DNA of 64,000 nucleotides from contig JACZJT010000052.1 in the NCBI GenBank assembly GCA_014860445.1, forward strand, positions 1 through 64,000, written 5' to 3'. A model generated the notes under the pieces. It ran no database searches. It saw only the letters and a program-made list of their open reading frames with translations, and was not told where the DNA came from. Source of the stretch: Burkholderiales bacterium (GTDB lineage Bacteria > Pseudomonadota > Gammaproteobacteria > Burkholderiales > SG8-39). Within the stretch, counting starts at the first letter, position 1. Each line of letters opens with the position of its first letter. Both the position numbers and the translations under genes were made by a program. This document shows positions 11,103-36,868 of the stretch, one piece after another.

Positions 11103-11109
11103 GGCTTCC

Positions 11110-11925
11110 TCATGCTGCGAGTAGTAGCAAAGCGAGTGTGTTCTGATCTTCCCAAGTGACCCGCCCGACTCCTGATACGGCCGAGTTCGCAGCGCGAAGA
11201 TTCCCGCCTCCGGCAATTACGACCGGCGCTGTGCGAGGCGTCCCACGTGGCCCAGCAAAAACGTTCACCGGCGCAGCAACTGTCCCGCCGACTGCTCGCG
11301 CCTCGCCGATTCCTTCGGCGTGGCCGATCGCTTCGACGATGAGCACAAGCGCCTCGCCGTCCTCGCCGACCGCGCTCGCGCTAGTGGCGCCCGCAGCGGT
11401 ACCGACGACACCCTTGACTTCGCCTCCGGAGCCTTGCGCGGTGCCCACGCCGTCGGCTTGGCCGATCGCTTCGACGATGAGCGCAAGTGCCCCGCCATCC
11501 TCGCCTACCGCGCTCGCGCTAGACGTGCCCACGGCGGTACCGACGCCGCCCTTGACTGTACCCCCGTCGCCTTGCGCACCGCCCACGCCGTCCGCGTTGC
11601 CCACACCCAAAACGGTGTTCGCGGCGTCAACCCCGACCCCGGTCGCGCTCGAGACGCCCGTCGCAGCACCGACACCGCCCTTGACCACGCGCCCGATGCC
11701 TTGCGCACCGCCCACGCCGTCGGCGTTGCCCACGCCCGAAACGGTCTCGGCGGCGTCAGTCCCGACCCCAGTCGCGCTTGAGACGCCCGTCGCAGCACCG
11801 ACACCGCCCTTGACTGCGCCGCCGGCCGCTTGCGCCGTTGAAATGCCGTTGGTTGATCCGACGCCCGCAACGACGGTGAGCGCAACGCCCGTCGCTTGCG
11901 CTGTTGCGGTCCCTTGCGCTGCCAT
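11110..11925 (-). CDS. Gly/Ala/Val-rich repeat protein, phage-associated
   Basis: A 271-residue low-complexity protein built from four to five units of about 40 residues, each carrying a block like [16 protein letters not shown] plus a linker ([28 protein letters not shown]). The C-terminus is non-repetitive ([20 protein letters not shown]) and ends hydrophobic. It follows the stop of the tail-fibre-like gene directly and precedes the collagen-like gene by 7 bp, so the two are probably co-translated. It is likely a beta-structured virion surface protein; function is not known. Confidence 0.65.
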
Positions 11926-20821: not shown

Positions 20822-21544
20822 TTAGTGCGTGTTCGCCGGCGCCGCTTCTGGCACGATCTTCTCCGCGTCGAGCACGCTCACCGCGAGCTCCGCGAGCAGC
20901 CGAAGTGCGACCGCGTTGTTGATGACTTTCTTTTCCTGCTTGACGCGCACGATCGCGTCGAAAAGCGCGTTGAACGTCGCAAGCTCGCCGACCAGGACCT
21001 GCGCCTTTTTGCTCGCCTCGATGCGTGCGACGAGATCGATGAACACGGCTTTTTCCTCGGGCAAAAAAGCGATCGTCAGCTCCTCGTACCTCGGCCGCGT
21101 GATGCCAAGCGCCGCGAGCTTCTCGTCGGTGCATCTGAAGGCGTCATCGGTGACGCCGCTGTAGCGTTTCCATTCCAGCGAGTTCAAGCTGGTGTAGAGC
21201 TGCGCAAGGATGTTCGGATCGTCCTTGCCGTTGATCGCGTTCTGCGACAACTGGATCGCCAGGCGCCGCTCCTCGGTGAGTTCGGTGAGAACGTCCAACA
21301 CGTCGGCCTCTTCAATCCCTGCCTTGATCGCGGCGCGCACGCGGTGATTGCCGCTCAGCACTTCGCCGCGATAGACCACCGGGACGCCCATCAGCTTCCC
21401 GTCGTGTTTGATGTTGGCGACGAGCTGGCTAAACTCCTGCGGTGTCATGTAGCGCGCGTTCTTCTCCAGCAATTTCAGGTCGTGCAGCTTGACCTTGACG
21501 ATCCGGCTTTCCACCTTGTCCAGCGTATTTTCGGAGCCATTCAT
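20822..21544 (-). CDS. ParB-like nuclease-domain protein
   Basis: A 240-residue protein from ATG 21544 (MNGSENTLDKVESRIVKVKL). The ParB/sulfiredoxin-like domain covers residues 15-100, with VPVVYRGEVLSGNHRVRAAI containing the G-x-HR nucleotide site, followed by a helical C-terminus. No DNA-binding HTH typical of partition ParB is apparent. It shares 116 bp with the upstream DNA-modification-like gene, so the two are tightly coupled. Such ParB-like proteins often accompany phage DNA-modification enzymes. Confidence 0.8.
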   Translation of the reverse strand: MNGSENTLDKVESRIVKVKLHDLKLLEKNARYMTPQEFSQLVANIKHDGKLMGVPVVYRGEVLSGNHRVRAAIKAGIEEADVLDVLTELTEERRLAIQLSQNAINGKDDPNILAQLYTSLNSLEWKRYSGVTDDAFRCTDEKLAALGITRPRYEELTIAFLPEEKAVFIDLVARIEASKKAQVLVGELATFNALFDAIVRVKQEKKVINNAVALRLLAELAVSVLDAEKIVPEAAPANTH

Positions 21545-22805
21545 TGAACACGTCCTGGATAGATTGATTGCGAATTGCCGACTGGTACTGCAGGTGATCG
21601 GCGGCGCGTTTGTCCAATTCAAAGATCCCGCGGTACTTCATGGACACGGGCTTGGTCGTGAACGCCGTGGTCACGATGTATTCGACCTTGATCAGCAGGC
21701 GGCGGTTGATCGGTTCGATCACCTCGCGGCAGCTCGCAATCATCGGGATCAGCTTCGAGATCCTGCGTTCGCGCGAGACTGAGAAATCCGAGAGCATGTA
21801 AAGCTCGCGCGTCTTATCGCCAAACCGGGTTTGCGCGAAGATGAATCCGCCGGCGAGCACACCATCGATCAGCACGATGCAATTGAACTGGCCCGTGGTG
21901 TGTTCGATGCCTTTGGCGAGATAGACGTTTTTCAGGTAGTTCATGCGCTTGCCGTCGACCTCGGCAACCGTCACCTTGCTCTTGGCCGCAATCGCGGCCG
22001 GATCGATCACTGCGTATTTGAATTGAACTTCGTTCGGTAGCCGACGCCGGTACGATGCGGCCTGGTTGCTCGAATAGGTGTAGACGGGCTTGTTCGCGCC
22101 GCGCCATTCCGTTGTCGGTGTGCGATCGGCGAGCAGCTGATCCGAAATCACGCAGTACGGAATATGCCGCTCTTCAAGCGACAGGATAAACGCCGGCAGC
22201 GAGTCCGGGTCCCAGATGCCGTATCTCGGCGCCGGCCAATCGGTGTTCTCGTTGACGAGCCGGTAGATCCGCTCGTATCCGTTTTTGTAGGTCGGAGCAA
22301 AGCACGCCATGCCGCCGCCGCGTTTCTCGGCCCGATCCGCCTGCTCGATGAAGTCGCCGGCGTAGTAGTCCTCGATCTTGATCTGCGCCACCAGCGCGGC
22401 GAGCTTCGGCAGCGCCTGATCCACGAACACCCGGAACTGCTCGCGATAGTGCCGAAAATGCACCTGGGCGTATTCGTTCTTGCTCGTGAATTTGCCCATT
22501 GCCGATGCGACCATCACGGCGGCAACGCGCCCGCGGAAGTCCATCCCGGCAATCGCAGCTTCGACGAACTCGAGTTCGCCCTTGAAGCGGATCTCGAACT
22601 CGCGCCCCATCGCCAGGGCGCCGATGCTGCAGGTCAGGAGCGACACGTCGTTCGAATAGACGCGGCAACCGGGGTGCCGCATCTTCACCGCGCGGTCGAA
22701 GCGGAAGCTGCCCGAGCAGCCGACGTACACGTCGCCCCACTCATCAAACGGCACGGTCGAAAGCACCTGACCGACGACCTCTTTTGGGACGGCGCCGATG
22801 AACAT
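21429..22805 (-). CDS. Putative phage DNA-modification protein (methyltransferase-like plus GNAT-like regions)
   Basis: A 458-residue protein I do not confidently assign. The N-terminus (DEWGDVYVGCSGSFRFDRAV; CRVYSNDVSLLTCSIG) resembles a degenerate SAM-binding beta-alpha unit followed by an acidic second strand. The middle region contains GMACFAPTYKNGYERIYRLV. The C-terminal part (NCIVLIDGVLAGGFIFAQTR; ELYMLSDFSVSRERRISKLI) reads like a GNAT acyltransferase fold, as in Mu Mom. It overlaps a ParB-like gene and faces the early operon across a shared promoter region. Anti-restriction modification of phage DNA is a reasonable inference, not shown. Confidence 0.5.
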   Translation of the reverse strand: MFIGAVPKEVVGQVLSTVPFDEWGDVYVGCSGSFRFDRAVKMRHPGCRVYSNDVSLLTCSIGALAMGREFEIRFKGELEFVEAAIAGMDFRGRVAAVMVASAMGKFTSKNEYAQVHFRHYREQFRVFVDQALPKLAALVAQIKIEDYYAGDFIEQADRAEKRGGGMACFAPTYKNGYERIYRLVNENTDWPAPRYGIWDPDSLPAFILSLEERHIPYCVISDQLLADRTPTTEWRGANKPVYTYSSNQAASYRRRLPNEVQFKYAVIDPAAIAAKSKVTVAEVDGKRMNYLKNVYLAKGIEHTTGQFNCIVLIDGVLAGGFIFAQTRFGDKTRELYMLSDFSVSRERRISKLIPMIASCREVIEPINRRLLIKVEYIVTTAFTTKPVSMKYRGIFELDKRAADHLQYQSAIRNQSIQDVFNEWLRKYAGQGGKPDRQGQAARPEIAGEERALHDTAGV

Positions 22806-24713: not shown

Positions 24714-25679
24714 ATGGCACACGAAATTGATATGAGCAACAGCCGGCAGAACATGGCGTTCGTCGGTCAAACCCCGTGGCACGGCCTGGGCTCGAAACTC
24801 GCGCCCGGCGCCGACATCGAAACCTGGCGCGCGGCGGCCGGACTCGCGTGGAACGTAGCCGAAACCGAGACGCTGTTCAGATTCGACGGCGAAATCAGGG
24901 TGGTGCCGGACACGAAGGTTCTGCTCCGCAGCGACACGAAGGCGCCGCTCTCGGTGGTCTCCAAGTGGTACAACACCGTCCAGCCGGGCGAGGTCCTCGG
25001 GTTCTTCGACGAGCTGGTCAAGGCCGGCGGCTTCGAGCTTGAGACCGCAGGGGCGCTTCGCGGCGGCCGGCGCATTTGGGCCCTCGCCCGGGTCGGCGAA
25101 GCGGCCAAGATTGTTGACGGCGACATGGTGAAGCCCTACCTGCTGCTCGCCACCAGCTACGACGCGAGCATGGCCACCACGGCGCAGTTCACCAGCGTCC
25201 GCGTCGTCTGCAACAATACGCTCTCGGCCGCCATCGGCAACGGTGAGCAAAAGGTCAAGATCCCGCACCTGTCCAAATTCAACGCAGCCGAAGTGCGCGA
25301 CCAGCTCTCGATCGCAATCTCCGGCTGGGACGAATTCCTGATGCAGACCCGCCGCATGGCCGCCACACCGCTCGATGCCCAGGCGGCCGACGCCTACCTG
25401 CTCGACGTCTTCAAGTGCGACGTTGAGACGCTGGAAGCGCCGGAGAAGACCCGGAAGTCCAAAGCGTATAAGAGCGTCCTGGCCCTCTTCGAGGGCACCG
25501 CGGCCGGTTCAGAAATGGTCGGTCAGAGCCTCTGGGGCGCCGTCAACGCCGTCACCGAGTACGTCGACCACGAGCGCGGCAAGGCGCGTGAATCCGCGTT
25601 GGATGCTGCGTGGTTCGGCGAGGGCGCCAACCTCAAAGACCGCGCTTTCACGGTCGCCCGCGAACTGATCGCGGCGTAA
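24714..25679 (+). CDS. DUF932 phage/plasmid-like protein (TIGR03299 type)
   Basis: A 321-residue DUF932 protein. Features: AFVGQTPWHGLGSKLAPGAD, VVSKWYNTVQPGEVLGFFDE, RVVCNNTLSAAIGNGEQ and a C-terminal VTEYVDHERGKARESALDAA. The family is widespread on plasmids, ICEs and large phages, typically in the same early gene set as RadC, DUF2786 and ArdC. No activity is established. Ribosome site ACAGGAGCTTC. Confidence 0.93.
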   Translation: MAHEIDMSNSRQNMAFVGQTPWHGLGSKLAPGADIETWRAAAGLAWNVAETETLFRFDGEIRVVPDTKVLLRSDTKAPLSVVSKWYNTVQPGEVLGFFDELVKAGGFELETAGALRGGRRIWALARVGEAAKIVDGDMVKPYLLLATSYDASMATTAQFTSVRVVCNNTLSAAIGNGEQKVKIPHLSKFNAAEVRDQLSIAISGWDEFLMQTRRMAATPLDAQAADAYLLDVFKCDVETLEAPEKTRKSKAYKSVLALFEGTAAGSEMVGQSLWGAVNAVTEYVDHERGKARESALDAAWFGEGANLKDRAFTVARELIAA

Positions 25680-25688
25680 TTCAAAACT

Positions 25689-25759
25689 GGAGCGGCCCGG
25701 CGGAATCGAACCGCCGCGGTCGCCCCGGTGGAACCGGAACGACTTTCCACTTAGCCGCA
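25689..25759 (-). other. tRNA-like element, antisense and degenerate
   Basis: The minus strand of the DUF932-ligase gap folds like a tRNA. There is an acceptor stem (GCGGCTA with GGGCCGC, one mismatch, one wobble), a 4-bp D-stem, a canonical T-arm (GGCGG-TTCGATT-CCGCC) and an encoded CCA. The total is 71 nt. The anticodon arm is abnormal (10-nt loop), so no amino acid can be assigned. It could be a tRNA relic, a tRNA mimic or an old attachment site. Confidence 0.5.
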
Positions 25760-25773
25760 AAAAAGGAAACCAA

Positions 25774-26835
25774 ATGCAAAATGAAAGCGTCACCCTTTAC
25801 TACCGCGACCACGCCAGCGACAAGGTGTATCAAGCGCAAATTGCGCCCGAAGCTGATGGCTTCGCCGTGCGTTTTCAATACGGACGCAGGGGCAGCACCT
25901 TGACCGCCGGCACCAAAACCCCGGCGCCGTTGCCGTTCGAGAAGGCGAAAAAGATTTACGACGCCCTGGTCAAATCCAAGACCGCCAAGGGCTATACACC
26001 GTCCGAGGGCGGCGTTCCGTATCAGGCGTCCGTAGATGAAGCGCGCGTCACAGGGCTCGACGTTCAGGTGCTCACCCCTGTCGCTGAATCCGAAGTCACG
26101 AGCTACATTTCGAATGACGCATACGTCGCCCAGGAGAAATACGACGGCGAGCGCCGGCCGGTTGCTAATCGTCAGACCGCGATCGGCAGCAACAAGCGCG
26201 GGCTGGAAATCGCACTCCCGATTGCGCTGGCAGAAAGCGTCGCTCTTCTCTTACCCGGCACCGAGCTTGACTGCGAACAGGTCGGCGACAAGCTCTACGC
26301 CTTCGATCTGTTGCGCGATGGCGAGAACAACGTGCGCCAGTTGCCCTACATCACGCGATACGGTCTGCTCCTAGAAGCCCTGCGGCGCGTCGGCGTAAGC
26401 AACATCGAGACCGCGCCGACTGCGTTCGGCACATCGGCGAAACGCGCCCTGTTCGAGCGCCTAAAGGCTGGAAAGGAAGGCATCGTGTTCAAAAGGGGTG
26501 ATGCGCCTTACAAGCCCGGCAACGGCAAGAATCTCGATCAGGTCAAGTTCAAGTTTGTCGAATCGGCCACAGTCGAGGTCGCTACCGTTCACGCCTCCAA
26601 GCGCAGCGTGACAGTCCAGGTCTACGACGATGCCGGCAACGTGGTTACGCTCGGCTCGGTGAGCGTCGGGGTCGATAAAGACATTCCGGCGCTCGGCGAT
26701 ATCGTCGAAATCCAGTACCTATATTGCATGGCTAGCCTGATTCAGTCGGTCTACCTCGGTAAGCGCACTGATCAGAATCGCGCAAGTTGCACAGTAGCTC
26801 AACTCAAATATAAATCGGCCACGATCGCCGCGTAG
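25774..26835 (+). CDS. ATP-dependent DNA ligase with N-terminal WGR domain
   Basis: A 353-residue protein. Residues 1-75 form a WGR domain (VRFQYGRRGST in place of WGR). The nucleotidyltransferase domain carries motif I KYDGER (Lys122 as AMP acceptor), FDLL (motif III), KEGIVFK (motif IV) and QVKFKF (motif V). An OB-like domain follows (VEVATVHASKRSVTVQV). All key ligase residues appear present. WGR-ligase fusions occur on phages and plasmids and presumably seal nicks. It follows the antisense tRNA-like element. Confidence 0.88.
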   Translation: MQNESVTLYYRDHASDKVYQAQIAPEADGFAVRFQYGRRGSTLTAGTKTPAPLPFEKAKKIYDALVKSKTAKGYTPSEGGVPYQASVDEARVTGLDVQVLTPVAESEVTSYISNDAYVAQEKYDGERRPVANRQTAIGSNKRGLEIALPIALAESVALLLPGTELDCEQVGDKLYAFDLLRDGENNVRQLPYITRYGLLLEALRRVGVSNIETAPTAFGTSAKRALFERLKAGKEGIVFKRGDAPYKPGNGKNLDQVKFKFVESATVEVATVHASKRSVTVQVYDDAGNVVTLGSVSVGVDKDIPALGDIVEIQYLYCMASLIQSVYLGKRTDQNRASCTVAQLKYKSATIAA

Positions 26836-26846
26836 CAAGATGCTGC

Positions 26847-26878
26847 GGCAAGCGGGCACCCGCACTGGCCCGTTTGCC
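26847..26878 (+). promoter_or_regulatory. Leader hairpin downstream of the ligase gene
   Basis: GGCAAGCGGGC ... GCCCGTTTGCC forms an 11-bp stem with one G-T pair and a 10-nt loop. No T-run follows. It precedes a nine-codon ORF and the DUF488 gene. Confidence 0.5.
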
Positions 26879-26920
26879 GATGCACTTCGCAACCCATGAG
26901 CGCAAAACAGGAGAAGCAAA

Positions 26921-26950
26921 ATGACCACCCCGAGCCTTCTGATTCAGTAA
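26921..26950 (+). CDS. Nine-codon leader ORF (MTTPSLLIQ)
   Basis: ATG with a good ribosome site (ACAGGAGAAGCAAA), nine codons, then TAA, 42 bp before the DUF488 start. It carries the same initiation module as its neighbours. It may be a leader peptide or the remnant of a deleted gene. Confidence 0.35.
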   Translation: MTTPSLLIQ

Positions 26951-26992
26951 CACTTCAAATATGGTTTTCCAAACCTCAACAGGAGCTTGAAA

Positions 26993-27364
26993 TTGAAAAC
27001 AGCGTCTTTCTTTTCCTACTTCGGCCCCGGCCGGATCTCGATCGCGCGGTTCGCGCCGCGCAACACGCCGGCCGGTTTCAAGGTCTACAAGCCGCTGGCG
27101 CCCGGCCCCTGGTTCAACAGCGTGCCAGAAGACGTCTACCGCGAGCTCTACTTCGCCCAACTGGCGGATCTCGACGCGGCAGCGGTGGTGGGCGATCTTC
27201 TCCACCTGGCCGCCGGCGCCGAGCCGATCCTTTTGTGCTACGAGAGCGTGAAGGACATCGCGACCGGCGCCACCTACTGTCACCGCCACATGGTCGCGGA
27301 GTGGCTCAAGCGCGAACTTGGCATCGATGTGCCGGAGATCGAAGCCGGACACAACATCGCCTGA
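26993..27364 (+). CDS. DUF488-family protein
   Basis: A 123-residue DUF488 protein: SYFGPGRISIARFAPRNTPA at the N-terminus and the family signature ILLCYESVKD ... CHRHMVAEWL at the C-terminus, with paired Cys/His residues. The start is a TTG at 26993. The ribosome module ACAGGAGCTTG-AAATTG is identical in layout to the neighbours' AAATGG, showing that TTG replaces ATG. The track's TTG at 26987 lies too close to the AGGAG. Function of the family is not established. Confidence 0.85.
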   Translation: MKTASFFSYFGPGRISIARFAPRNTPAGFKVYKPLAPGPWFNSVPEDVYRELYFAQLADLDAAAVVGDLLHLAAGAEPILLCYESVKDIATGATYCHRHMVAEWLKRELGIDVPEIEAGHNIA

Positions 27365-27432
27365 AAAACGAAACCAGGGTCGGTTCCCGCCTTCCCTGGC
27401 TTCTGACCATCCGAACTGAACAGGAGCACGAA

Positions 27433-27672
27433 ATGGCTGCAGCAAGTGTAACTCACCGCACGAGCGACGTATTCGCTCAAATCATCCGGCGCAAAATGCG
27501 CAGGCAAGGCGTGACAATTCGCCAACTCGCGACCGCCATGAACCTAACCATGAAGCGAGTGCGCGAGGTCCGCGATCACGGCACGGCTCCGGCCTGGGCG
27601 AATGCTTCCGAGTATTGCTGGAAGCAGGACTGGCTTGACGGCATCAACGCGGCCAGCGCGGTGCAATCATGA
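27433..27672 (+). CDS. Small HTH-like protein
   Basis: A 79-residue basic protein from ATG 27433 with ribosome site ACAGGAGCACG. A helix-turn-helix is likely in TIRQLATAMNLTMKRVREVR. The first codons (MAAASVTH) and the leader resemble those of the ArdC-like gene (MAVQSVAQ), indicating duplication of the 5' end. It overlaps the ParB gene by ATGA and may be its autoregulator. Confidence 0.6.
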   Translation: MAAASVTHRTSDVFAQIIRRKMRRQGVTIRQLATAMNLTMKRVREVRDHGTAPAWANASEYCWKQDWLDGINAASAVQS

Positions 27673-28517
27673 AACTCCACACCGCCTCGGTCATCCCCAA
27701 CCCGGACCAGCCGCGCAAGCGCTTCAATCCCGAGGCGCTGGCCGAGCTGGCCGCGTCGATCAACGCCAACGGTTTGATCCAGCCGATCACTGTTCGCGCC
27801 TTGCCCGAGGACCGGTACATGATCGTTGCAGGCGAGCGCCGCTGGCGTGCTCACGTCCTGGCCGGGCTCGACACGATCGAAGCCAACTTGATCGAGATCA
27901 CCGATAGCGAGCGAGACATCCTCGCCATCGTCGAGAACCTGCAGCGGGCCGACATCACGCCACTTGAGGAAGGCCGGGCGTTCCAGCGCGTCCTCGACAC
28001 CGGTGTCACCGCCCAGGAGCTTGCGGATCGGATCGGACTTAAACAGCCCTGGCGCATCACCGAGCGCACCGCGCTGCTGCGGCTGAATCCGTCCTACCTA
28101 AACCTGCTCGAAAAAGGCCACCTGTCACCGTCCCAGGGAACGGAGCTGGCCCGGCTCGACCAGCATGACCAGGACACGCTGTTCGGCCTGATCCGTGACG
28201 GGCGCTGCGAGACTTACGCGAAGCTGCGCGCCGCGGCAGACGCTCTGATCGCCGCAGCCAGCCAGGGCGGCTTTTTTGAGAAACCGAAGGTAAGCGCCGC
28301 GGAAGCCAAAGCCCTGTCGGCATTCGAAGCCAAGATCGAGCAGATCGTCCGCATGGTCGCCAGTGGGTTCAAGGACAACGAAGTCGTCGCCTTGCAGAAG
28401 ATCAACCCGCACCGCGCGGGCATCGTCGCCGAACAGATCGGGCTCATCAGCAAGCACCTGAAGCAAATCGAGCGCGAGATTCAGAAAGTCGTCGCGCAAG
28501 GCGAAATCATCACCTAA
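27669..28517 (+). CDS. parB: ParB/Spo0J-family partition protein
   Basis: A 282-residue ParB with the canonical layout: PNPDQPRKRFNPEALAELAA, the CTP-binding GERRWRAHVLAG motif, ENLQRADITPLEEGRAF and an HTH (ELADRIGLKQPWRITERTAL). The C-terminal half is helical. No parA is next to it, which is unusual for a segregation cassette, so it could serve gene regulation or replication of the element. Confidence 0.93.
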   Translation: MKLHTASVIPNPDQPRKRFNPEALAELAASINANGLIQPITVRALPEDRYMIVAGERRWRAHVLAGLDTIEANLIEITDSERDILAIVENLQRADITPLEEGRAFQRVLDTGVTAQELADRIGLKQPWRITERTALLRLNPSYLNLLEKGHLSPSQGTELARLDQHDQDTLFGLIRDGRCETYAKLRAAADALIAAASQGGFFEKPKVSAAEAKALSAFEAKIEQIVRMVASGFKDNEVVALQKINPHRAGIVAEQIGLISKHLKQIEREIQKVVAQGEIIT

Positions 28518-28530
28518 CCAGGAGAAAATC

Positions 28531-29166
28531 GTGAACACCACATTCGACAAACGTCAAACCGCCACCATCCTCGCCGCCCTGCGCTACTGGCAGAGCAATG
28601 GGATTGTGGCATCGCGTCATGACCACTACACCATCGCCACCGACGACGGCACCCTGCAACCCCTTAACCGCCCGGAAATAGACGTCATGTGCGAGCAGAT
28701 CAACATGCCCGCCGCCACGCCCATCATTGTCGTCGGCTGCGAGGGCGGACTGGTGCAAGGTGCCTCGTCGAACATCGCGGGTCTGTCCATGATCGTGCTC
28801 GATTACGACACTGAGGGCGCCGACGACGACGAGATTACCGAAGTTCCACAGTCCGACACGGTGGAGCTAGAGCCGGCAATCGTTGGTTTGCACACCGTCG
28901 CGCACGATGCTCCCTGGGTTCAGCAGATTGTGACGGCTGCCGGACTCAAGGACACCGCTGGAAAGCCCCTGGAGCTGGCTGCCAGAGCAGCGCAGGAATC
29001 CGGCAACTGCCGTGCCCTACTCGAATCTATCCATGAAGAGCTTGAAGGCATGGGCTTCGGCACTGATCAATCTATCGACGGCGGCGACTGCTGCGAGTAC
29101 CTGGGCAAACTGTTCGTGGACGTCGGCGAGGCTCTGGAGCGCGACGGCGCCAAGGTGGCGACATGA
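28531..29166 (+). CDS. Plasmid/phage-type hypothetical protein
   Basis: A 211-residue acidic protein with a GTG start and the ribosome site CCAGGAGAAAATC. The N-terminus (DKRQTATILAALRYWQSNGI) and the block MIVLDYDTEGADDDEITEVP occur in mobile-element hypotheticals as I remember them. The C-terminal half is Asp/Glu-rich (DQSIDGGDCCEYLGKLFVD). Function unknown. It overlaps the next gene by ATGA. Confidence 0.7.
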   Translation: MNTTFDKRQTATILAALRYWQSNGIVASRHDHYTIATDDGTLQPLNRPEIDVMCEQINMPAATPIIVVGCEGGLVQGASSNIAGLSMIVLDYDTEGADDDEITEVPQSDTVELEPAIVGLHTVAHDAPWVQQIVTAAGLKDTAGKPLELAARAAQESGNCRALLESIHEELEGMGFGTDQSIDGGDCCEYLGKLFVDVGEALERDGAKVAT

Positions 29167-29495
29167 CCATCGAGGTATTGCGTCGCACATTCGCGGCGGC
29201 AAAGCGTCCACCTGGGAGCGAGGAACGCGCCAGACTGAACCGAGACGCGCTCACCAGTGAGTATTACACGTCGCACCGCTACATGACGCGCCAGCCACTC
29301 ACGATGGACGACGGCACACCGCACCCGACGCAGCACTGTCTCTGCCGGACGTTCAAGACAAAGGTCGAGGCTGACGCATACGCCTCAAGGCAACGGCCGC
29401 CCATCGTCAGGGCGGTCAAGATCGAGCAGGTTGATATGTTCGCCAATCAAGGCGGACTGTTCGCTCACGTCGCGCAGCCGGGCGAAGTGGAATAA
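29163..29495 (+). CDS. Hypothetical protein with duplicated C-terminal tail
   Basis: A 110-residue protein of unknown function. The C-terminal segment VKIEQVDMFANQGGLFAHVA reappears, diverged, in the ORF at 35.7 kb (VKIDQADLFNDQGSLFGNVV), so the two are paralogous tails on either side of the defence-like island. Last intact gene of the rightward set. Confidence 0.65.
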   Translation: MTIEVLRRTFAAAKRPPGSEERARLNRDALTSEYYTSHRYMTRQPLTMDDGTPHPTQHCLCRTFKTKVEADAYASRQRPPIVRAVKIEQVDMFANQGGLFAHVAQPGEVE

Positions 29496-29585
29496 ACCCT
29501 CCAGCACCCAAGATCATCCGCATCGACCGGCGCACCGCATGGTCTGATTCGGCCTATCCACGCAAACAGTCCAACGCGCAACACT
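29496..29585 (+). pseudogene. Remnant gene matching the frame at 35.86 kb
   Basis: The frame reading KIIRIDRRTAWSDSAYPRKQ and ending TAG at 29585 lacks a clear start. Its IRIDRRTA matches GRIDPRTA of the 21-codon ORF at 35.86 kb, both immediately after a paralogous tail gene. It looks like the stub of a gene interrupted by the island. Confidence 0.4.
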
Positions 29586-29601
29586 AGCTGTCAAAGCTAT
29601 G

Positions 29602-30732
29602 TCAGGCGTTAGCCGCCTCTAAGCTAATTTCCAAGTGCTGGTGACGCTCCGTTTCGGAGATCACCTTCAGGCGCTCGGCGAGGTTCCCAAGGGCCAAGAC
29701 CCATGTTTTACCGATTCCTGTGCTGTATTCAGTGGTGAAACTCTCATGGGACGGATATTCAATGTGGATATCTGGGTGTAACGCTTTGACCATGGAACAG
29801 CCAACCGCTTGAAGCTTGCTACCAGCTGGGGCCAACAGGATTCTGTGGCTGGCCGAAAGTGCCCAGTAGAGATCGAGCAACATCAAAACCGTTTCCCGGT
29901 AGTCCAGAGTCGATACAGATCGCTTCGGTAATGCAACTTCGCCAGGTCGCGCCTGTTCCACCGGGTTGTCAATCTCCCATTCCCGGCGCACTTGGTCGTG
30001 AATCCAGGCCGTTGCCTGTTCACGCCAGCTATGCACTGGTGGCCGTCCGTTGATCAAGAACAACCGCCCCGGATAAGCTGTGTTCAACAGCACCTGAGTA
30101 AGCGCGTCGTTGAAGGACATGAATACCAAGGCTGCTGTCTGGTGCCCCTGCATGGCGACGCTTGCGAGCGAATCGACGCGAACCACACCATGCACGCCAG
30201 TAAACACCTGCAGCGACGGCTGATGCACTTTGTTTGTCTCCCGAGCCCGATTGAAACTTGCTTCGGTAGGACCGTAGCTCTCGGCCTCCGCATAGAAAAT
30301 CGTCACCTCAAGCTTGAGAGTCCGAGCCACGTTTAGCACCAAAATGATCAACAGCTTAGACATCGTTGAAATATCCACTAATACTCGGCGCGCACGATGG
30401 TATGTTAGCCGTGCGCTCAGGCGCTGCTCGAAATCGCCCGGCTCAAATCGGTTGTAATTGAGAATATCCCCATCCGTGATTTGCACTCCGACCTTGTTAA
30501 TGCTCTGGCGCACATCGGCCAGTCGGTTTCTTGAGTTAGCCGGTTCATAACTCATGAGGATAGCCTTCGCTGACGTACCAGTCATGATGGCCTGCGTTAC
30601 GGCCATGGTGCGGTCTTCAAATCCCGGAGCATGCACAACAACATCACCCGCGTCGATGGCCAGCTTCGATTCTTGCCGGAGCGCGGGTAGCAGCGTTAGT
30701 AGCGCCTGATTTTCCGACTCGGTCACGGTCAC
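29602..30732 (-). CDS. Third gene of putative defence island, unknown
   Basis: A 376-residue protein I do not recognise, starting at a GTG that overlaps the kinase-ATPase stop (GTGA). The N-terminal half looks Rossmann-like (VVVHAPGFEDRTMAVTQAI; KAILMSYEPANSRNRLADVR; RVLVDISTMSKLLIILVLNV; EVTIFYAEAESYGP). The GFEDR and DISTMSK patterns recur in proteins I associate with conflict-type gene islands. The second half is helical with another strand-rich part (HRILLAPAGSKLQAVG). There is no obvious nuclease motif or membrane segment. As the last gene of the operon it may be the effector or a sensor; both are guesses. Confidence 0.65.
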   Translation of the reverse strand: MTVTESENQALLTLLPALRQESKLAIDAGDVVVHAPGFEDRTMAVTQAIMTGTSAKAILMSYEPANSRNRLADVRQSINKVGVQITDGDILNYNRFEPGDFEQRLSARLTYHRARRVLVDISTMSKLLIILVLNVARTLKLEVTIFYAEAESYGPTEASFNRARETNKVHQPSLQVFTGVHGVVRVDSLASVAMQGHQTAALVFMSFNDALTQVLLNTAYPGRLFLINGRPPVHSWREQATAWIHDQVRREWEIDNPVEQARPGEVALPKRSVSTLDYRETVLMLLDLYWALSASHRILLAPAGSKLQAVGCSMVKALHPDIHIEYPSHESFTTEYSTGIGKTWVLALGNLAERLKVISETERHQHLEISLEAANA

Positions 30733-33452
30733 TCCTCTGGGCGTTCGCCCAAATCGTCGTATAGGGGATCGCCCCGACCTGATTCTGCGCTTTCCCCAAA
30801 CATGGTCATCTGCCCGGTATCACCTCCACTACGATTCCTAGAGGCGATGAAAGTCTCTCTGAAGATGTCCGGTTCAAGCAGCAATTGGATGAATGATGAA
30901 CAGCTCAGCGATACGCTATCCCGCTTAGAGAGCGCCAGGGTGCCATAGGGAAGTAGCAACCGGCGTAAATAGAGTCGGGGCACAAATGCGCCGCGCACGC
31001 TCTTCCCTCTATTGTCACGCATAAACAGCCCATACCGGATGAGATCTCGGTAGATCTGCTCGGCCAGCCCTGAAATGCGAAACTCGTCCACGATTTCGAT
31101 CCGGAAGGCCATCCGAGGCACCTCTCTCACATGCCCGTTTTCGCGGATCGTATACGTCGGGCCATGTAGAAGTTCGCTCGCTGCGGCGACAAACGCTTCG
31201 ACAATCGCCTTGAGGTGATCACCGAAACGTCCGGAGAGTTTATAGTTCGGCCTCGTCATTTGAATGGCCGCTAACTCGTTCTGCAATTGAATCGGGTTCG
31301 TCGGCTCATTGCGAGTATGGGAATTCAGCCACTCACTGCCGCGATTCCGAAAGGCGCGATCCTGAAGAGCTTCTTCGATCGGGAACGAAAGTAACGACGC
31401 GGGATTACCCGCGTCTGCGGCCTGGTCCACGACATCGGAAATTAATTGGATCATGGTTCGTGTATCGCCGGACCAGAGATTCGAAAAAACATCATCACCA
31501 AAATAATTCACGCGCGAACGCGAACGGCCACGCCTCTGCGATGTGCCTACAATTGTGGTCTGTTCATCTGCACCCTGCTCAGACGGCATCAATCTGAGAC
31601 GCCGCGCGAACTCAGTTTTTGACAACGCCGAATGCCCCAGGAGTTGGCGCAGAGACGCGCAATCTCGCGGTATTCTTTGATCCACAGACAGTCGCCGTGA
31701 AAATACTTCGTTCAGGAACACGAGGCGCTCGTCATCGGGCAGGAAAAGGGATTCCTCGCCGAGATCTACCAACTGGAAGTCGTCACCATCCTGGAGGCTC
31801 TTGCCGCTTGAATCCAGTGGGACGAAAGTCGTCCAGGCTTCGGTGGCCACTTTGGTCAAGATCTCGGGAGAGCGTTGCAGCAGCGAGCGGTTGAGCACAC
31901 GCTGTATCGATTCCGAGACCCGAGGCGTCGAGTAGTCATCGACGAACAACAGGATCGCACGGTCGCCGATCCAGGAGCAGCAGTTCCGGGCCTGTTGCGC
32001 AAAATGAGGAAGCCATCGATGCTGGGACATCTCATGGTAGCCTTGGAAGCAGACCGCGTCGGAGCCGGTCGGGAACAACCACTTCGTTTGTTCCAAGATT
32101 GACCGGTATTTCTCAAGCCGGTCTTCGCCTAGGATCAAGGAATTATTTGTATCCGATATAAGTAGGCGCTTGACGAGTTCCAGCAACGGAGCACTTGGTT
32201 GGGTGTCATTGCGCGCTGAACGCGCTGACTCTACGGCCAAAAGGTCGGCCAGGACGCAGAGATTGGCGAAGCAAATCAATCGCGCTTCGTCGGCAGACGA
32301 TGGATTACTCGGGAAATGCGCAAACGCATCCGCGATGTCGTTGGCGTTGACGTAGAACGCGACAAATTTTGGCGGATCTGGCAGTCCTAACACTGGCCCA
32401 CACTCAACCATCAGCCGCTCGCTGAGCCGTCGGAATAGCATAGTCTTTCCACACCCTCGCGGCCCAGTTACTACGGTCGGTATATCCAGCGCCAGAATCT
32501 TAGAACGCGCCGGAACCGTCGGAACAAATAGCTTTTTCCACCAATCCCAACGTTCTCCGATCATTTCGCTTACTTGAAATTGGCCGACCCCCGGACCATC
32601 GGCCGCGTCAGCCTGGAATGAACTGCGGCTCAGAATTGCCTGCTGTATCGGCGGCGTTGCCGATTTCCCACATTGCGCTTTTTCCTTGATTTCTTTGACA
32701 AGGTGCAAGATGTCGAGCGGCCGGCAGCGTTCCGTGCCCTGGGATTCCCGCAGTAGCTTTGCGAACAACGGCTTAATCGCCTGCAATATTTGCTTGTGCG
32801 TTGCCGTCGCCATCGCGTAACCAACCCGCGCGATCATCATATTAATAATTTCGGCGAGCCCTATGTAGTCGTCCTTTGGAGACTTTTCACCGCCCGTGGC
32901 TCCGTAGCCGAAGTCAGAAACAAAGATGGGTTGTCTCCGCTGCATCGAATCATCATAGGTTTCAAGTTCTTCCGACCCGATCAGGATATTGCCAGCGTGG
33001 AGATCGCCATGTCGCGATACGCCTTTCGCCTCGCACCCATGCAAGACATGCAATATACGCTCGGTCACTGCCAGCAAAAAGCTTGTATTGATGCTCTTGA
33101 CCCGCTCTAGATAGGTAATCAGATTTTCGCCGGGGGGGATGTAGTCCCAGACCGTGTACAGACACAATTGCGTGTCACCGAGGTGCGTGATGCGTGACTC
33201 CCCGTGAGTGTGGTAATGCACTACACCCTGGACGAGATTGAGCTTCGATACCTTTTTGAGCTCGGTATCCCATCCCGACTTCAGTGCGCGGAAGACTAGC
33301 TTGACCGCAAATTCTGTATCGGGCAGATCTTTGTGGTAAGCCTTGTAGACGAAACCGATCTTGCCCTTGCCGACAAATCCACCCAGTCGGAAGTTCTCAA
33401 CTTCCTTGCCCTCCAAGTCTTCGGACCAAGACTTGTTATTTTCTTGGGGCAC
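30729..33452 (-). CDS. Ser/Thr protein kinase fused to ORC/CDC6-like P-loop ATPase
   Basis: A 907-residue protein. Residues 20-260 form a eukaryote-like kinase: Gly loop GFVGKGKIGFVYKA, Lys51 in FAVKLV, catalytic HGDLHAGN (Asp150) and DFG at 180-182. All catalytic elements are present. A P-loop NTPase follows, with Walker A GPRGCGKT at 330-337 and Walker B LLFVDD near 500-506, resembling ORC/CDC6 or STAND-type ATPases. The C-terminal 300 residues look like winged-helix and adaptor regions (AEQIYRDLIRYGLFM). It overlaps the methyltransferase gene by 17 bp. Kinase-ATPase fusions suggest a phosphorylation-controlled, DNA-linked sensor. Confidence 0.85.
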   Translation of the reverse strand: MPQENNKSWSEDLEGKEVENFRLGGFVGKGKIGFVYKAYHKDLPDTEFAVKLVFRALKSGWDTELKKVSKLNLVQGVVHYHTHGESRITHLGDTQLCLYTVWDYIPPGENLITYLERVKSINTSFLLAVTERILHVLHGCEAKGVSRHGDLHAGNILIGSEELETYDDSMQRRQPIFVSDFGYGATGGEKSPKDDYIGLAEIINMMIARVGYAMATATHKQILQAIKPLFAKLLRESQGTERCRPLDILHLVKEIKEKAQCGKSATPPIQQAILSRSSFQADAADGPGVGQFQVSEMIGERWDWWKKLFVPTVPARSKILALDIPTVVTGPRGCGKTMLFRRLSERLMVECGPVLGLPDPPKFVAFYVNANDIADAFAHFPSNPSSADEARLICFANLCVLADLLAVESARSARNDTQPSAPLLELVKRLLISDTNNSLILGEDRLEKYRSILEQTKWLFPTGSDAVCFQGYHEMSQHRWLPHFAQQARNCCSWIGDRAILLFVDDYSTPRVSESIQRVLNRSLLQRSPEILTKVATEAWTTFVPLDSSGKSLQDGDDFQLVDLGEESLFLPDDERLVFLNEVFSRRLSVDQRIPRDCASLRQLLGHSALSKTEFARRLRLMPSEQGADEQTTIVGTSQRRGRSRSRVNYFGDDVFSNLWSGDTRTMIQLISDVVDQAADAGNPASLLSFPIEEALQDRAFRNRGSEWLNSHTRNEPTNPIQLQNELAAIQMTRPNYKLSGRFGDHLKAIVEAFVAAASELLHGPTYTIRENGHVREVPRMAFRIEIVDEFRISGLAEQIYRDLIRYGLFMRDNRGKSVRGAFVPRLYLRRLLLPYGTLALSKRDSVSLSCSSFIQLLLEPDIFRETFIASRNRSGGDTGQMTMFGESAESGRGDPLYDDLGERPEE

Positions 33453-34638
33453 TTGACGATCCGTGTGCTTTAGGTTTCGTCGACGCTTTCTTGTAGATCA
33501 GCACCGTCTCCGACTTTGTGCCAGTGCACTCGCGGCGGGATCGCCGGATATTGGGAATAATGTCGCTATAGATTTGTTCGAGTCCGAACACCTGGAGGGT
33601 GGGTTCCGATTCGAAGACCTTGCGCGTGATGAAATCCGTCCGCCCAGGGCGACCGCTGCCGCGCGTAGCATCGCCGACCACAAGGATGATATAGCCGCCT
33701 GGCTTGATTCCCGATGCCAAACGCGAACATACCGACATTAATAACGCTCTATATTCCGACTCTCGATCTCGGCGCTTAAGTTCTAGGCCCTGTGGTAGCG
33801 ACCGGTCGATAAACCAGAGTCGTAGGCGATTGTCGCGAACGTAATCGAGTTCGTTCATGTACGGCGGGCTGGTTATTACAGCGCTGATCTGGCGCAGCCT
33901 AGGGAATTCACGAGCATCAACGTGTAGTACGCGACGCGACTCTGTGTAGCGGGTTACAGGGCGCTTGAACGTTCGACGTATCTTCGCCTGCATCCGCGAC
34001 AGCACGTCCCGTTCCTTATACATTTCAGGATACTGCTCGCGCGGGAACCGGCGATCTCGCAAGTACGGAACAAGGTGGCTGCTCGGGTAAGATAGGAATC
34101 CCGGACGCTGATGGTGAAGCACGCCTAGGAAACAGGCGAGAAGAAAGATGTCGCCACGTGCTACGCAGGCGTCCCGAAACGCAAGGGCGGTTCGCAGTGT
34201 TTCAGGATGAAAGAATTGTCGTACCCAAGTCGGAATTTTACGTAAGTCTTGGTCGCTATGGAGCCGCTGCGACATAACCCATGTCGCCTGTAATCGGCGG
34301 TTCGCTGCATCCAGGCTGGATGGTGGAAACAGTTTTGCCTTGGTGAGCAAGACGGCGTAAGGGTTCCAGTCTCCGGCCACTACCCGACGGCCATTGGCTG
34401 CTGCTTCGAGCACTGCAACCCCGCAACCACAGAACGGATCAACTACCAAGTCGCCAGCGTTCGTGTACTCCAGCATTAGAGATTTGGCCATCGACGTCTT
34501 CATCCGGCCAATATAGGGGGCGATTTGGTGCAGCGACAGGTCGGTGGCTTTCGTGGACGCAGCCGACCAGTTCGGCGACAAACGTAACGAATCCTTGGCT
34601 ACAGTATTGAAAATGTCAATCGTTGTAGCATCGAACAT
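33436..34638 (-). CDS. DNA methyltransferase (N4-C/N6-A type), defence-island member
   Basis: A 400-residue SAM-dependent DNA methyltransferase. Motif I DPFCGCGVAVLEA lies at residues 67-79, an acidic second-strand motif at AGDWNPYA, and the catalytic TSPPY at 256-260, followed by NELDYVRDNRLRLWF. A conserved N-terminal HQIAPYIGRMK precedes motif I, as in beta-class enzymes. The middle insertion (residues 110-230) is probably target-recognising. No cognate restriction gene adjoins it; the kinase-ATPase follows, overlapping by 17 bp. First gene of the operon. Confidence 0.9.
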   Translation of the reverse strand: MFDATTIDIFNTVAKDSLRLSPNWSAASTKATDLSLHQIAPYIGRMKTSMAKSLMLEYTNAGDLVVDPFCGCGVAVLEAAANGRRVVAGDWNPYAVLLTKAKLFPPSSLDAANRRLQATWVMSQRLHSDQDLRKIPTWVRQFFHPETLRTALAFRDACVARGDIFLLACFLGVLHHQRPGFLSYPSSHLVPYLRDRRFPREQYPEMYKERDVLSRMQAKIRRTFKRPVTRYTESRRVLHVDAREFPRLRQISAVITSPPYMNELDYVRDNRLRLWFIDRSLPQGLELKRRDRESEYRALLMSVCSRLASGIKPGGYIILVVGDATRGSGRPGRTDFITRKVFESEPTLQVFGLEQIYSDIIPNIRRSRRECTGTKSETVLIYKKASTKPKAHGSSSAPRK

Positions 34639-34672
34639 CGGCGAAACCCATTTTCCTTGATAAGCGCATCAT

Positions 34673-34698
34673 TTGCGCACTATTCTTGCGCACTATTC
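34673..34698. repeat. Tandem 13-bp repeat upstream of the methyltransferase
   Basis: Two perfect, abutting copies of TTGCGCACTATTC lie 35-60 bp upstream of the methyltransferase ATG, where an operator or promoter element of the island would be expected. The flanks contain more copies of GCGCA. Confidence 0.6.
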
Positions 34699-35122
34699 AA
34701 ATAGTATGGCGTCCCGGGCCCGCCTGAATGCGGACAACGGTACCCCGGTACCAAAAAGAGAAGTCACGTCCCTTATGCTGCAAAGATTTATTCGATTTAT
34801 CGATCAGCCATATTCGCTACAGCTGGAAAACCGGAAAATCGGGGTAAGCTCTAATATTGCCAAATCCTAAAAAAGCATACCATATTTGCAACCGTCCCTA
34901 AGACTCTGAAGTCTGCTAGCGAATGGCCGCTGTGGAGCATGTTTGTGCATTGCGATGACAGTCCGGAATGGCCGAACTTAGACCGTCACTGTGTTCGCGT
35001 TCTCGATCATCATTCATTGGCGCACCGCACAACACCGGATCAATCACGGAAATCGAAAACTTCATTTTCCAAGAGTTGACATTCATTCAGAGAATACTGT
35101 TTTTCAGTGCGGGCTGCACGTT
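34699..35122. other. Intergenic region, no supported gene
   Basis: About 420 AT-richer bases between the island promoter and repeat copy A. Short ORFs on the plus strand lack ribosome sites and recognisable sequence. The last part (FADLRDYFPATSSL frame, from about 35100) belongs to the gene-end repeat. Confidence 0.4.
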
Positions 35123-35236
35123 CGCGGATCTCCGGGACTACTTCCCCGCCACCAGCTCACTTCCCCCCGGCATCGCCACGCCAACCTGAGCACCACCATC
35201 GCGCCAGGCCGCGCCACCTGACGCCAACAGGCGCAT
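35123..35236 (+). repeat. Gene-end repeat, copy A
   Basis: Starts CGCGGATCTCCGGGACTACT and encodes the protein tail ADLRDYFPATSSLPPGIA before a stop. It is nearly identical to copy C over its first ~75 bp and related to copy B. The ParB-like fragment begins right after it. Confidence 0.75.
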
Positions 35237-35623
35237 TGCGGATCGGACTCGCAACGCGCGATCTGCAAAGGGTGGAGCTGGAAATATGGCGACTACAAGG
35301 ACCGCGAGCACATCACGAAGAACCTCGACGGGCTCGACGACAAAATGCTCATTGCCCTGCTCTTCGACCTGACGTTGATCGGCGACGTGAAGTGCCACAC
35401 CTACCACACCGGCAAAGGCGAGCGGCTGATGGCGACGGCGAAGCGCGTCAAAGTGGACGCAGCGCAGATCCGCGCGACCGTCACGCAGGCCCAAAAGATA
35501 TCCAGATTTTGCGTCGCCGCTGATTGGCAGGCTTTGGTGACCTTCGTGACTACTTCCCCGCCACTGGTTCGCCTCCCTCAGATCATCCCACCGGCCACCA
35601 GCGCGCCAGTCCGCGCCACCTGA
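35222..35623 (+). pseudogene. C-terminal fragment of a plasmid-type ParB-like protein
   Basis: The frame is open from 35222 to 35623 but has no start before an internal ATG. Its sequence (WKYGDYKDREHITKNLDGLD; LLFDLTLIGDVKCHTYHTGK; AKRVKVDAAQIRA) resembles, from memory, the C-terminal region of large plasmid/ICE ParB-like proteins. It is fused upstream to repeat copy A and runs out of frame into copy B, so it is a truncated relic. The family name is moderately uncertain; the relic status is clear. Confidence 0.5.
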
Positions 35624-35696
35624 CACCCACAGGCGCGTAACTCCACCCTTACCCCAGACCAATCGAGCTTGTGACAGCTAGCGACCGCGCTAGCGG
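35530..35696 (+). repeat. Gene-end repeat, copy B
   Basis: Encodes, in one frame, GFGDLRDYFPATGSP. It shares the RDYFPAT core with copies A and C, the GCCACCTGAC block, and with copy C the tail CTCCACCCTTACC...CCAATCG plus the beginning of the next gene. Confidence 0.7.
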
Positions 35697-35862
35697 CACA
35701 TCAAATCCTATAGGCCTCAAGGATCTCGAGTCGGCTGCGCCAACGGAGGAACCGAAACCGGCGCCTCCGGCCGGTCACCGCGTCAAGATCGACCAAGCCG
35801 ATCTGTTCAATGACCAAGGCAGCCTGTTCGGCAACGTCGTCCAACCTGGGGACCTGACGTGA
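35671..35862 (+). CDS. Hypothetical protein, paralogous tail of the 29.2-kb gene
   Basis: A 63-residue GTG-initiated ORF with a Pro-rich middle (AAPTEEPKPAPPAGH). Its C-terminus VKIDQADLFNDQGSLFGNVV matches the end of the 29.2-kb protein. It may be a shortened duplicate. It is followed by another small paralogous frame through a GTGA overlap. Confidence 0.45.
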   Translation: MTASDRASGTSNPIGLKDLESAAPTEEPKPAPPAGHRVKIDQADLFNDQGSLFGNVVQPGDLT

Positions 35863-36037: not shown

Positions 36038-36289
36038 ATGACCACATTGACGGTTACCGCACGGGGACAAGTGACCTTTAGGAAAGAGGTGCTGCAACAC
36101 CTCGGCATCAGGCCAGGGGAAAAAATCGAACTAGATTTACTACCAGATGGCCGTGGCATACTCAAGGCAGCCCGGCCTACGGGAACGATTGACAGTTTCA
36201 TCGGATTGCTCGCCGGCCGGACAAAGAAAGTCGCTACCATTGAAGAAATTAACGAGGCGACCGCGCAGGGTTGGGCTGGTAAAGAATGA
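36038..36289 (+). CDS. vapB: AbrB/VapB-type antitoxin
   Basis: An 83-residue antitoxin. The N-terminal swapped-hairpin AbrB domain (TLTVTARGQVTFRKEVLQHL; GIRPGEKIELDLLPDG) binds DNA, and the C-terminal part (TIDSFIGLLAGRTKKVATIE) should wrap the toxin. It overlaps the PIN toxin by ATGA and has a promoter whose -10 box is covered by a palindrome. Confidence 0.92.
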   Translation: MTTLTVTARGQVTFRKEVLQHLGIRPGEKIELDLLPDGRGILKAARPTGTIDSFIGLLAGRTKKVATIEEINEATAQGWAGKE

Positions 36290-36681
36290 AGGTCGCTGTT
36301 GATACCAACGTTCTTGTTCGCGCTGTTGTGCGTGACGATGCCGCGCAAGCGAGCATCGCCGCCAAGGTCTTGAGCGATGCCGAAGTGATCGCGGTCGCAC
36401 TGCCATGCCTGTGTGAGTTTGTGTGGGTGCTGCGCAGGGTCTACAATTTTCAATCCTCCGACGTGGCCACCGCGATCCGCGCACTACTTGCCGCCGCAAA
36501 CGTGGAAGTGAACAGACCCGCCGTAGAGGTTGGCCTGTCGGTGCTCGAAGCAGGCGGGGATTTCGCCGATGGCATCATCGCTTATGAGGGGAACTGGCTC
36601 GGCGGGGAAACCTTCGTTTCCTTCGACAAAAAGGCGGTTGCGCTTCTCTCAGCGCAAGGTCAGTCCGCGCGTCTTTTGTGA
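36286..36681 (+). CDS. vapC: VapC-like PIN-domain toxin
   Basis: A 131-residue PIN-domain ribonuclease. The acidic residues are in AVDTNVLVRAVVRDD, CLCEFVWVL, GGDFADGIIAYEG and FVSFDKKAV. All four conserved acidic positions appear present, so the toxin should be active. It is the second gene of a coupled toxin-antitoxin pair within the recombination hotspot, where it may stabilise the region. Confidence 0.93.
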   Translation: MKVAVDTNVLVRAVVRDDAAQASIAAKVLSDAEVIAVALPCLCEFVWVLRRVYNFQSSDVATAIRALLAAANVEVNRPAVEVGLSVLEAGGDFADGIIAYEGNWLGGETFVSFDKKAVALLSAQGQSARLL

Positions 36682-36708: not shown

Positions 36709-36868
36709 CGCGGATCTCCGGGACTACCTCCCCGCCACCAGCTCACTTCCCCCCGGCATTACCACACCAACCTGAGCACCACCAGCGTGCCACCTGACGC
36801 TCACCGGCCCCTATCTCCACCCTTACCTCAGGCCAATCGCGTTCGCGAACATTGGCGACCACGCTCGC
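36709..36868 (+). repeat. Gene-end repeat, copy C
   Basis: Begins CGCGGATCTCCGGGACTACC and encodes PADLRDYLPATSSLPPGI before a stop. It is nearly identical to copy A over ~75 bp and shares its last part with copy B. It follows the toxin gene by about 30 bp. Confidence 0.75.

Follow-up and report, generated by a model that had tools for sequence, protein, structure and literature searches.

A prophage-borne operon of a DNA methyltransferase, a kinase-ATPase and a CARF6-type protein as a candidate immune cassette

What could be the function of three overlapping genes that join a DNA methyltransferase to a predicted protein kinase? This question is raised by a locus of a Burkholderiales bacterium (GenBank assembly GCA_014860445.1, contig JACZJT010000052.1), of which the stretch analyzed, called the window here, covers positions 1 to 64,000 of the forward strand (64,000 nucleotides). 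The operon lies at positions 29602-34638 of the window, and a previous sequence-only reading had described it as unrecognized and defense-like. Judged from its sequence and from its relatives, it may be a mobile, restriction-modification-like immune cassette, guarded by methylation and gated by a CARF protein, in which the signaling output of a kinase would replace the restriction nuclease. We consider this interpretation about equally likely to hold or to fail, and the evidence that bears on it is presented below.

The three proteins of the operon

The operon is formed by three minus-strand open reading frames in the order methyltransferase, kinase-ATPase and gene 3. Gene 1, the DNA methyltransferase (33436-34638, minus strand), encodes 400 amino acids from an ATG start; gene 2, the kinase-ATPase (30729-33452, minus strand), encodes 907 amino acids from a GTG start; and gene 3, the CARF6-type protein (29602-30732, minus strand), encodes 376 amino acids, also from a GTG. 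An alternative GTG 6 nt downstream, with an AGAGGAG-like Shine-Dalgarno sequence before it, is an equally good start for gene 3. Genes 1 and 2 overlap by 17 bp and genes 2 and 3 by 4 bp, so that the open reading frame calls agree with the overlaps reported previously. No nuclease, helicase or phosphatase domain was detected in the three proteins with the Pfam, PADLOC and NCBIfam models, and the earlier statement that a restriction endonuclease, a helicase and a phosphatase are missing was upheld for these proteins.

The assignment of gene 1 as a DNA methyltransferase was confirmed by its match to PF01555 (N6_N4_Mtase; 41.9 bits, cut-off 26.7, E 1.4e-10), and it also matched the PADLOC model MTase_II (E 1.4e-23). 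The two elements required of an N6/N4 DNA methyltransferase, a motif I for S-adenosylmethionine (SAM) and a catalytic (S/N/D)PP(Y/F), are both present. Motif I, DPFCGCG (residues 67-73), precedes TSPPY (256-260) with approximately 180 residues in between, i.e., the motif order appears to be alpha-like, with a putative target-recognition stretch separating the two motifs. Residues D67, F69, G71, G73 and T256-P259 are invariant in nine homologues. An SPPY motif leans to N4-cytosine methylation.

Gene 2 encodes a Ser/Thr-type kinase (approximately residues 15-230) followed by an ORC/CDC6-like AAA+ ATPase (approximately 290-620) and a conserved C-terminal region. The ATPase matched PF24389 (ORC-CDC6-like) with 87.8 bits (cut-off 27, E 9e-25) and the kinase matched PF00069 (Pkinase) with 28.0 bits (E 1.8e-6), all the catalytic motifs being present. 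The kinase active site (32907-33302, minus strand) contains the VAIK-type lysine K51, the catalytic loop HGDLHAGN (148-155) and DFG (180-182); K51, H148, D150, N155, D180 and G182 are invariant in all seven homologues, down to approximately 20% identity. The ATPase P-loop TGPRGCGKT (32442-32468, minus strand; residues 329-337) has an arginine within it, and T329, G330, R332, G333, G335, K336 and T337 are likewise invariant in the seven, as is the Walker B acidic pair D505-D506 (31935-31940, minus strand) of LLFVDDYS. Because the active-site residues are invariant across these homologues, both activities are probably real, and the kinase and the ATPase of gene 2 are probably both active. The previous description of an intact kinase fused to a P-loop ATPase was correct with respect to the invariant motifs and the PF24389 match. 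Additionally, gene 2 matched the PADLOC model PDLC01925 (CARF_STK_AAA; E 3.4e-22), and its profile aligned with fused kinase-ATPase-CARF relatives along both the kinase and the ATPase (E 4.9e-22). No C..C pair pattern of a zinc ribbon was observed in the first 60 residues of gene 2; this pattern is present in the related proteins of Loktanella and of the genomes G569 and G1086.

Gene 3 had been described as a protein with Rossmann-like strands and no known domain. The strands were recovered, in a low-confidence model, and the second part of the description had to be abandoned, since PADLOC CARF6 models match nearly the whole length of the protein: PDLC01917 gave E 2.1e-14 across residues 28-352 of 376, and PDLC01925 gave E 1.1e-6. 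The gene 3 homologues match the CARF6 models likewise. The Pfam family HFX_2341_N reached 16.1 bits, below its cut-off of 30, and the homologue of the distant genome G1519 reached E 0.016 against the established CARF domain Csa3_N, which is under the cut-off of that family. The CARF signature has been described as [DN]x[ST]xxx[RK] right after core strand 4 (Makarova et al., 2014, PMC4012209). In gene 3 this signature is DISTMSK (30355-30375, minus strand; residues 120-126), located directly after the fourth strand (116-120) predicted in the low-confidence model, and it is kept in all eight gene 3 and CARF sequences compared (DISTMSK, DVSGMSR, DITALSR, DVTGLAK and DISGLAK). Moreover, in a profile-profile comparison the C-terminal parts of two fused kinase-ATPase-CARF proteins aligned with gene 3 over 287 columns (E 1.3e-5, probability 81%), and the motifs GFEDR, DIS/DVT and GSK fell in register. 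By its profile, its signature and its homology to these fused C-termini, gene 3 is a CARF6-type protein; it seems to be the C-terminal part of such fused proteins, now detached, and is probably the sensor.

A second motif of gene 3, PAGSK (residues 302-306; 29815-29829, minus strand), corresponds to TGSK in the fused relatives, and G304, K306 and V310 are invariant in eight sequences. It may be the corresponding loop in a second CARF repeat, although this is suggestive only; when gene 3 was searched for an internal repeat, its halves aligned in register without significance (probability 0.5%). No winged helix-turn-helix domain was recognized by Pfam, and the CARF protein is encoded by a separate overlapping gene, not fused C-terminally. 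Structure prediction and comparison, proposed in the sequence-only reading, could be carried through in part: the alignments behind the AlphaFold models of gene 2 and gene 3 were shallow, and the models were too poor in quality to be used. In the low-confidence model of gene 3 (mean pLDDT 41.9) strands and helices alternate over residues 30-146, as they would in a six-stranded Rossmann-like fold, and a Foldseek search with this model returned eIF2B and dehydrogenases, generic Rossmann matches that carry no evidential weight. The profile of gene 3 matched none of the solved structures.

Recurrence of the triple and its mobile setting

A search of gene neighborhoods, also proposed previously, detected four further loci in which the methyltransferase, kinase-ATPase and CARF genes follow one another in this order, which makes five loci from four divergent sources with the window included. 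The nearest of them is on the IMG/VR contig IMGVR_UViG_3300003366_000008, with identities to the window of 76/77/77% for the three genes and a spacing of an 8-nt overlap and a 2-nt gap. The ratios of nonsynonymous to synonymous substitution rates (dN/dS) between this contig and the window were 0.12 for the methyltransferase, 0.10 for the kinase-ATPase and 0.11 for gene 3, and values of approximately 0.1 in each gene imply that all three are maintained. The recurrence in four further loci, together with the low dN/dS of each gene, indicates that the operon is not a chance assembly.

Two of the remaining loci belong to Bradyrhizobium and are 59-62% identical to the window: a plasmid of Bradyrhizobium quebecense and Bradyrhizobium sp. 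Oc8, the latter being the sole find of one scan of genome contigs. In such close pairs the identities are near-uniform across the three genes (62/60/60 for the Bradyrhizobium comparison). The kinase-ATPase of B. quebecense is split by a frameshift (L003 12660-12726) into two halves that are both open, the second starting with a 4-bp overlap. A true split into a kinase gene and an ATPase gene was rejected in favor of a frameshift, since Oc8 keeps the frame intact; the frameshift could be decay, a sequencing error or a working fission. The plasmid neighborhood also contains Mrr, Fic and ubiquitin-like conjugation genes.

The fifth locus is that of G1519, a distant gammaproteobacterium of the same class, in which the triple has the same order, 42/26/27% identity and tight spacing (a 1-nt gap and a 26-nt overlap). 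In the kinase-ATPase tree G1519 groups with the three triples with support 100/99. In the methylase tree a Salmonella homologue from a different gene context (methylase, ParA and SIR2) was not clearly separated from G1519, which leaves strict co-descent of the methylase unproven at the deepest level. Upstream of the triple in G1519, on the same strand, a protein of 576 amino acids joins a SAM methyltransferase to an HNH nuclease (L044 11806-13536).

Homologues of gene 1 head other defense-type modules elsewhere, either with ParA and SIR2 or with HerA, in one case together with NurA, and this pairing with varied modules fits a portable self-marking subunit. In the Salmonella record CP148763.1 (L017 7920-10979) a 37%-identical methylase leads a three-gene set with a ParA-family ATPase and a SIR2_2 protein, possibly another uncatalogued methylase-led defense cassette. 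This 500 kb record bears chromosomal-type genes, and its label as a plasmid may be wrong. In a Deferribacter megaplasmid (L020 5947-12420) the genes that come after a 24%-identical methylase are DUF87 (HerA-like) and NurA, and IS200/TnpB insertions separate the members of this set.

DNA methyltransferases flank the kinase-ATPase-CARF module in seven of the eight loci read. The fused forms of Loktanella and G569 adjoin C5 DNA methylases; the Loktanella locus also holds a NaeI-family endonuclease, and that of G569 holds a protein with HNH-like residues to which Pfam is blind, a possible HNH protein. The fused gene of G569 (L032 3130-14967) is flanked by two C5 methylases and by a Response_reg_2/HEF_HK signaling pair.

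The module is rare. Its close form was found in one of 300 genomes of the order, this one being the window's own genome, and the close-relative query found nothing further in 348 genomes of another order. Any form of the module (E < 1e-14) was detected in 2 genomes out of 385 in one class and 2 out of 369 in another. A DNA-level search of plasmids gave no match, and phages were matched neither by the prophage DNA nor in a tblastn search with the G1519 kinase-ATPase.

The operon of the window is carried by a prophage, as indicated by terminase, capsid-protease, portal and tape measure genes at 3.0-19.4 kb (capsid, portal and terminase at 13.4-19.4 kb). Early genes of this prophage (DUF932, ligase-like, ParB and two small genes) are located at 24714-29495 on the plus strand. 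The G+C content of the operon is 0.53-0.56, compared with approximately 0.58-0.63 around it, and the operon is bracketed by related ends of a small phage gene (29415-29472 and 35716-35854) that define an insertion site at 29415-35854. In the sibling genome G980 the flanks of the operon are 230 bp apart on one short contig, of which only the first 579 bp match; this arrangement is suggestive of an empty accessory site in a sibling without the operon. The IMG/VR contig contains terminase, portal and replication genes approximately 15-25 kb from the triple and an SLH-like cellular gene near its far end, so this triple may sit near a prophage edge. Upstream of the triple on that contig (L034 2571-4188), a K+ channel-like protein is encoded together with a predicted endonuclease-like one, of HsdR-N type as judged by eye.

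Other features of the window were also observed. A VapBC-like pair with a PIN domain (36038-36681) adjoins the operon and is flanked by direct repeats of 84 nt, 93% identical (35123-35206 and 36709-36792), with a partial third copy at 35539-35577; these repeats may mark a small mobile accessory unit. The prophage encodes a second methylase, unrelated to the operon, as a fusion of a phage DNA adenine methylase-like and a GNAT-like protein (21429-22805; PF22555 and PF22559), and a tail-fibre-like protein with collagen repeats, in which the DNA itself is repetitive over long periodic stretches (8955-11216). Beside the prophage, a metal-resistance region (38044-61404) comprises a MerR regulator, heavy-metal P-type ATPases, an AcrB-type efflux pump and a molybdate transporter.

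Comparison with known systems

A small fused family with the layout zinc ribbon-Ser/Thr kinase-AAA-CARF-winged helix-turn-helix has been described, for which kinase-mediated signaling was suggested and an arginine inside the P-loop was named as a hallmark (Makarova et al., 2014, PMC4012209). This family (PADLOC PDLC01925, CARF6--CARF_STK_AAA) shares with the operon the kinase, the ORC/CDC6-like ATPase with the P-loop arginine and the CARF part. By contrast, the operon encodes its CARF protein in a gene of its own, lacks the zinc ribbon and begins with an N6/N4 methyltransferase, whereas the fused relatives adjoin C5 methylases. The term "unrecognized" thus applies to the triple and not to its core: PADLOC 2.0.0, as proposed for checking, contains models for the parts and no system for the triple, and NCBIfam equivalogs gave no match, but the kinase-ATPase-CARF module has been on record since 2014. 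The triple was not found in the open literature searched, a coverage that excludes the 2020 CARF classification of Makarova et al. What looks new here is the split kinase-ATPase-CARF module locked to a DNA methyltransferase.

BREX type 2/Pgl resembles the operon in combining methylation, a kinase (PglW) and ATPases of the ORC/Cdc6 clade, to which BrxC and BrxD belong (PMC12839542). It differs in that the operon has no helicase, has a kinase fused to an ATPase with intact motifs and includes a CARF protein. PglZ (PF08665) was found neither in the window's genome nor in five other genomes or records with relatives, the control genomes being positive. A BREX/Pgl identity was consequently rejected, and the earlier exclusion on the same ground, formerly limited to the locus, now extends to the whole genome.

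MADS was suggested by weak PADLOC matches of the methyltransferase to mad2 (6e-9) and of the kinase to mad6 (2e-8), with mad8 at 0.006. However, MADS has five or more subunits against three genes here, and the CARF and ORC-like parts fit other families better. The MADS6 kinase equivalog NF047741 scored 21.4 bits against a cut-off of 460; with this model far below its cut-off and the full gene set not at the locus, MADS was rejected. A plain type II restriction-modification system was rejected because no nuclease family is present in the three operon proteins.

The CARF/SAVED effectors of type III CRISPR and CBASS also couple a CARF-type sensor to an enzyme, which here is a kinase and not a nuclease. 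Cas10 (PF22335) had no match in the window's genome, which is 99.5% complete, with positive controls, and SMODS (PF18144) had no match there either, other CD-NTase families not having been searched. A role as an accessory of type III CRISPR was rejected since Cas10 was not found, and a role as an accessory of SMODS-type CBASS is not supported by the SMODS search of this genome. Finally, PD-T4-6 and the phage anti-defense kinases share with gene 2 a small Ser/Thr kinase domain involved in the conflict between phages and bacteria (PD-T4-6 models, 3e-8), but the kinase studied here is joined to an ATPase in one protein and shares its operon with a methylase and a CARF protein.

Proposed mechanism and its alternatives

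In the proposed cassette, gene 1, with its methyltransferase motifs, would methylate a specific sequence and thereby mark self DNA. The ORC/CDC6-like ATPase of gene 2 would oligomerize on DNA or scan it and would be licensed by unmethylated or foreign DNA, a step that we infer from the homology to the BREX ORC/Cdc6-clade ATPases. Gene 3, as a CARF sensor or regulatory subunit, would dock on gene 2, a contact that is covalent in its fused counterparts, and, in keeping with its family and signature, would gate it through a nucleotide-like ligand. With both signals present, the kinase would phosphorylate host or phage proteins and stop infection or growth. The terms "anti-phage" and "modification status sensed" of the sequence-only reading were inferences of the same kind.

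Several observations weigh against this interpretation. The triple is known from five loci only, two of which are close relatives; the kinase score of 28.0 bits is just below the Pfam cut-off of 31.7; and the predicted structures are of low confidence (mean pLDDT 41.9 for gene 3 and 31.9 for gene 2). As Cas10 and SMODS were not found in the genome, the ligand of the CARF protein could be something other than a CRISPR or CBASS messenger, and it may not be a cyclic oligonucleotide. In addition, G1086 has a split kinase-ATPase and CARF pair (L043 7104-11301) without a methyltransferase within approximately 7 kb, which means that methylation is not essential to the core module. This pair is followed by a membrane-like protein of 182 amino acids, an alternative effector set-up.

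The G1086 pair also favors an alternative that we regard as rather unlikely, in which the CARF-gated kinase is the core and the methylase is an accessory: a nucleotide ligand made during infection (for example, 2',3'-cyclic phosphate RNA ends or a modified nucleotide) would bind the CARF protein and release the kinase, and the methylase would only protect or regulate the cassette, unread by the ATPase. CARF proteins are indeed ligand sensors (PMC4012209), and the C5 methylases beside the fused relatives show that the methylase type is exchangeable. However, in all five triples the methylase comes first, overlapping or nearly abutting gene 2, and it is under purifying selection. The carriage by a prophage, at an accessory site, and the place of the nearest relative, a phage contig that also encodes terminase and portal proteins, would suit a counter-defense function, with the prophage methylating its own DNA against host restriction and disarming host immune proteins by phosphorylation, and the T7 and JSS1 kinases are broad anti-defense factors (PMC12904381). 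With two phage-borne copies this explanation is a rival to be taken seriously, but it appears improbable: the remaining copies were found on a plasmid and in bacterial genomes, the fused relatives adjoin restriction-modification genes, and neither a CARF sensor nor an ORC-like ATPase is expected in a counter-defense kinase.

Carriage on mobile elements (prophage and plasmid), as well as the adjoining VapBC-like pair, would also agree with an addiction or toxin-antitoxin-like stabilizer, in which a kinase-ATPase toxin silenced by methylation or by the CARF protein retains the prophage or plasmid. Known addiction modules nevertheless do not resemble a set of three large genes that encode ATPase and CARF domains, and the triple also exists in G1519, a genome with no plasmid context shown; we regard this option as very improbable. 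Least credible of all is an ordinary orphan methylase beside an unrelated stress-signaling kinase pair: the methylase family is promiscuous in its neighbors, but the gene order is fixed and the divergence near-uniform in the loci found. The methylation-guarded, CARF-gated kinase cassette is accordingly the interpretation that we prefer. A bolder form of it, which we put forward as possible and only tentatively, would make the operon a distinct immune class spread by phages and plasmids, in which a kinase would be under the joint control of a CARF nucleotide sensor and of the self or non-self methylation of DNA, as read by an ORC-like ATPase, with CARF signaling outside CRISPR and CBASS and with phosphorylation, not nucleic-acid cleavage, as the output.

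CARF sensors are best known for receiving CRISPR or CBASS second messengers that switch on nucleases. The conserved, mobile unit of three genes described above links a CARF protein to a kinase-ATPase and to a DNA methylase. With approximately 5 kb, the operon is small enough to be transferred whole into a laboratory strain. It bears on the question of what CARF6 proteins sense, and on how methylation systems without a known nuclease, such as BREX and MADS, convert a lack of methylation into protection.

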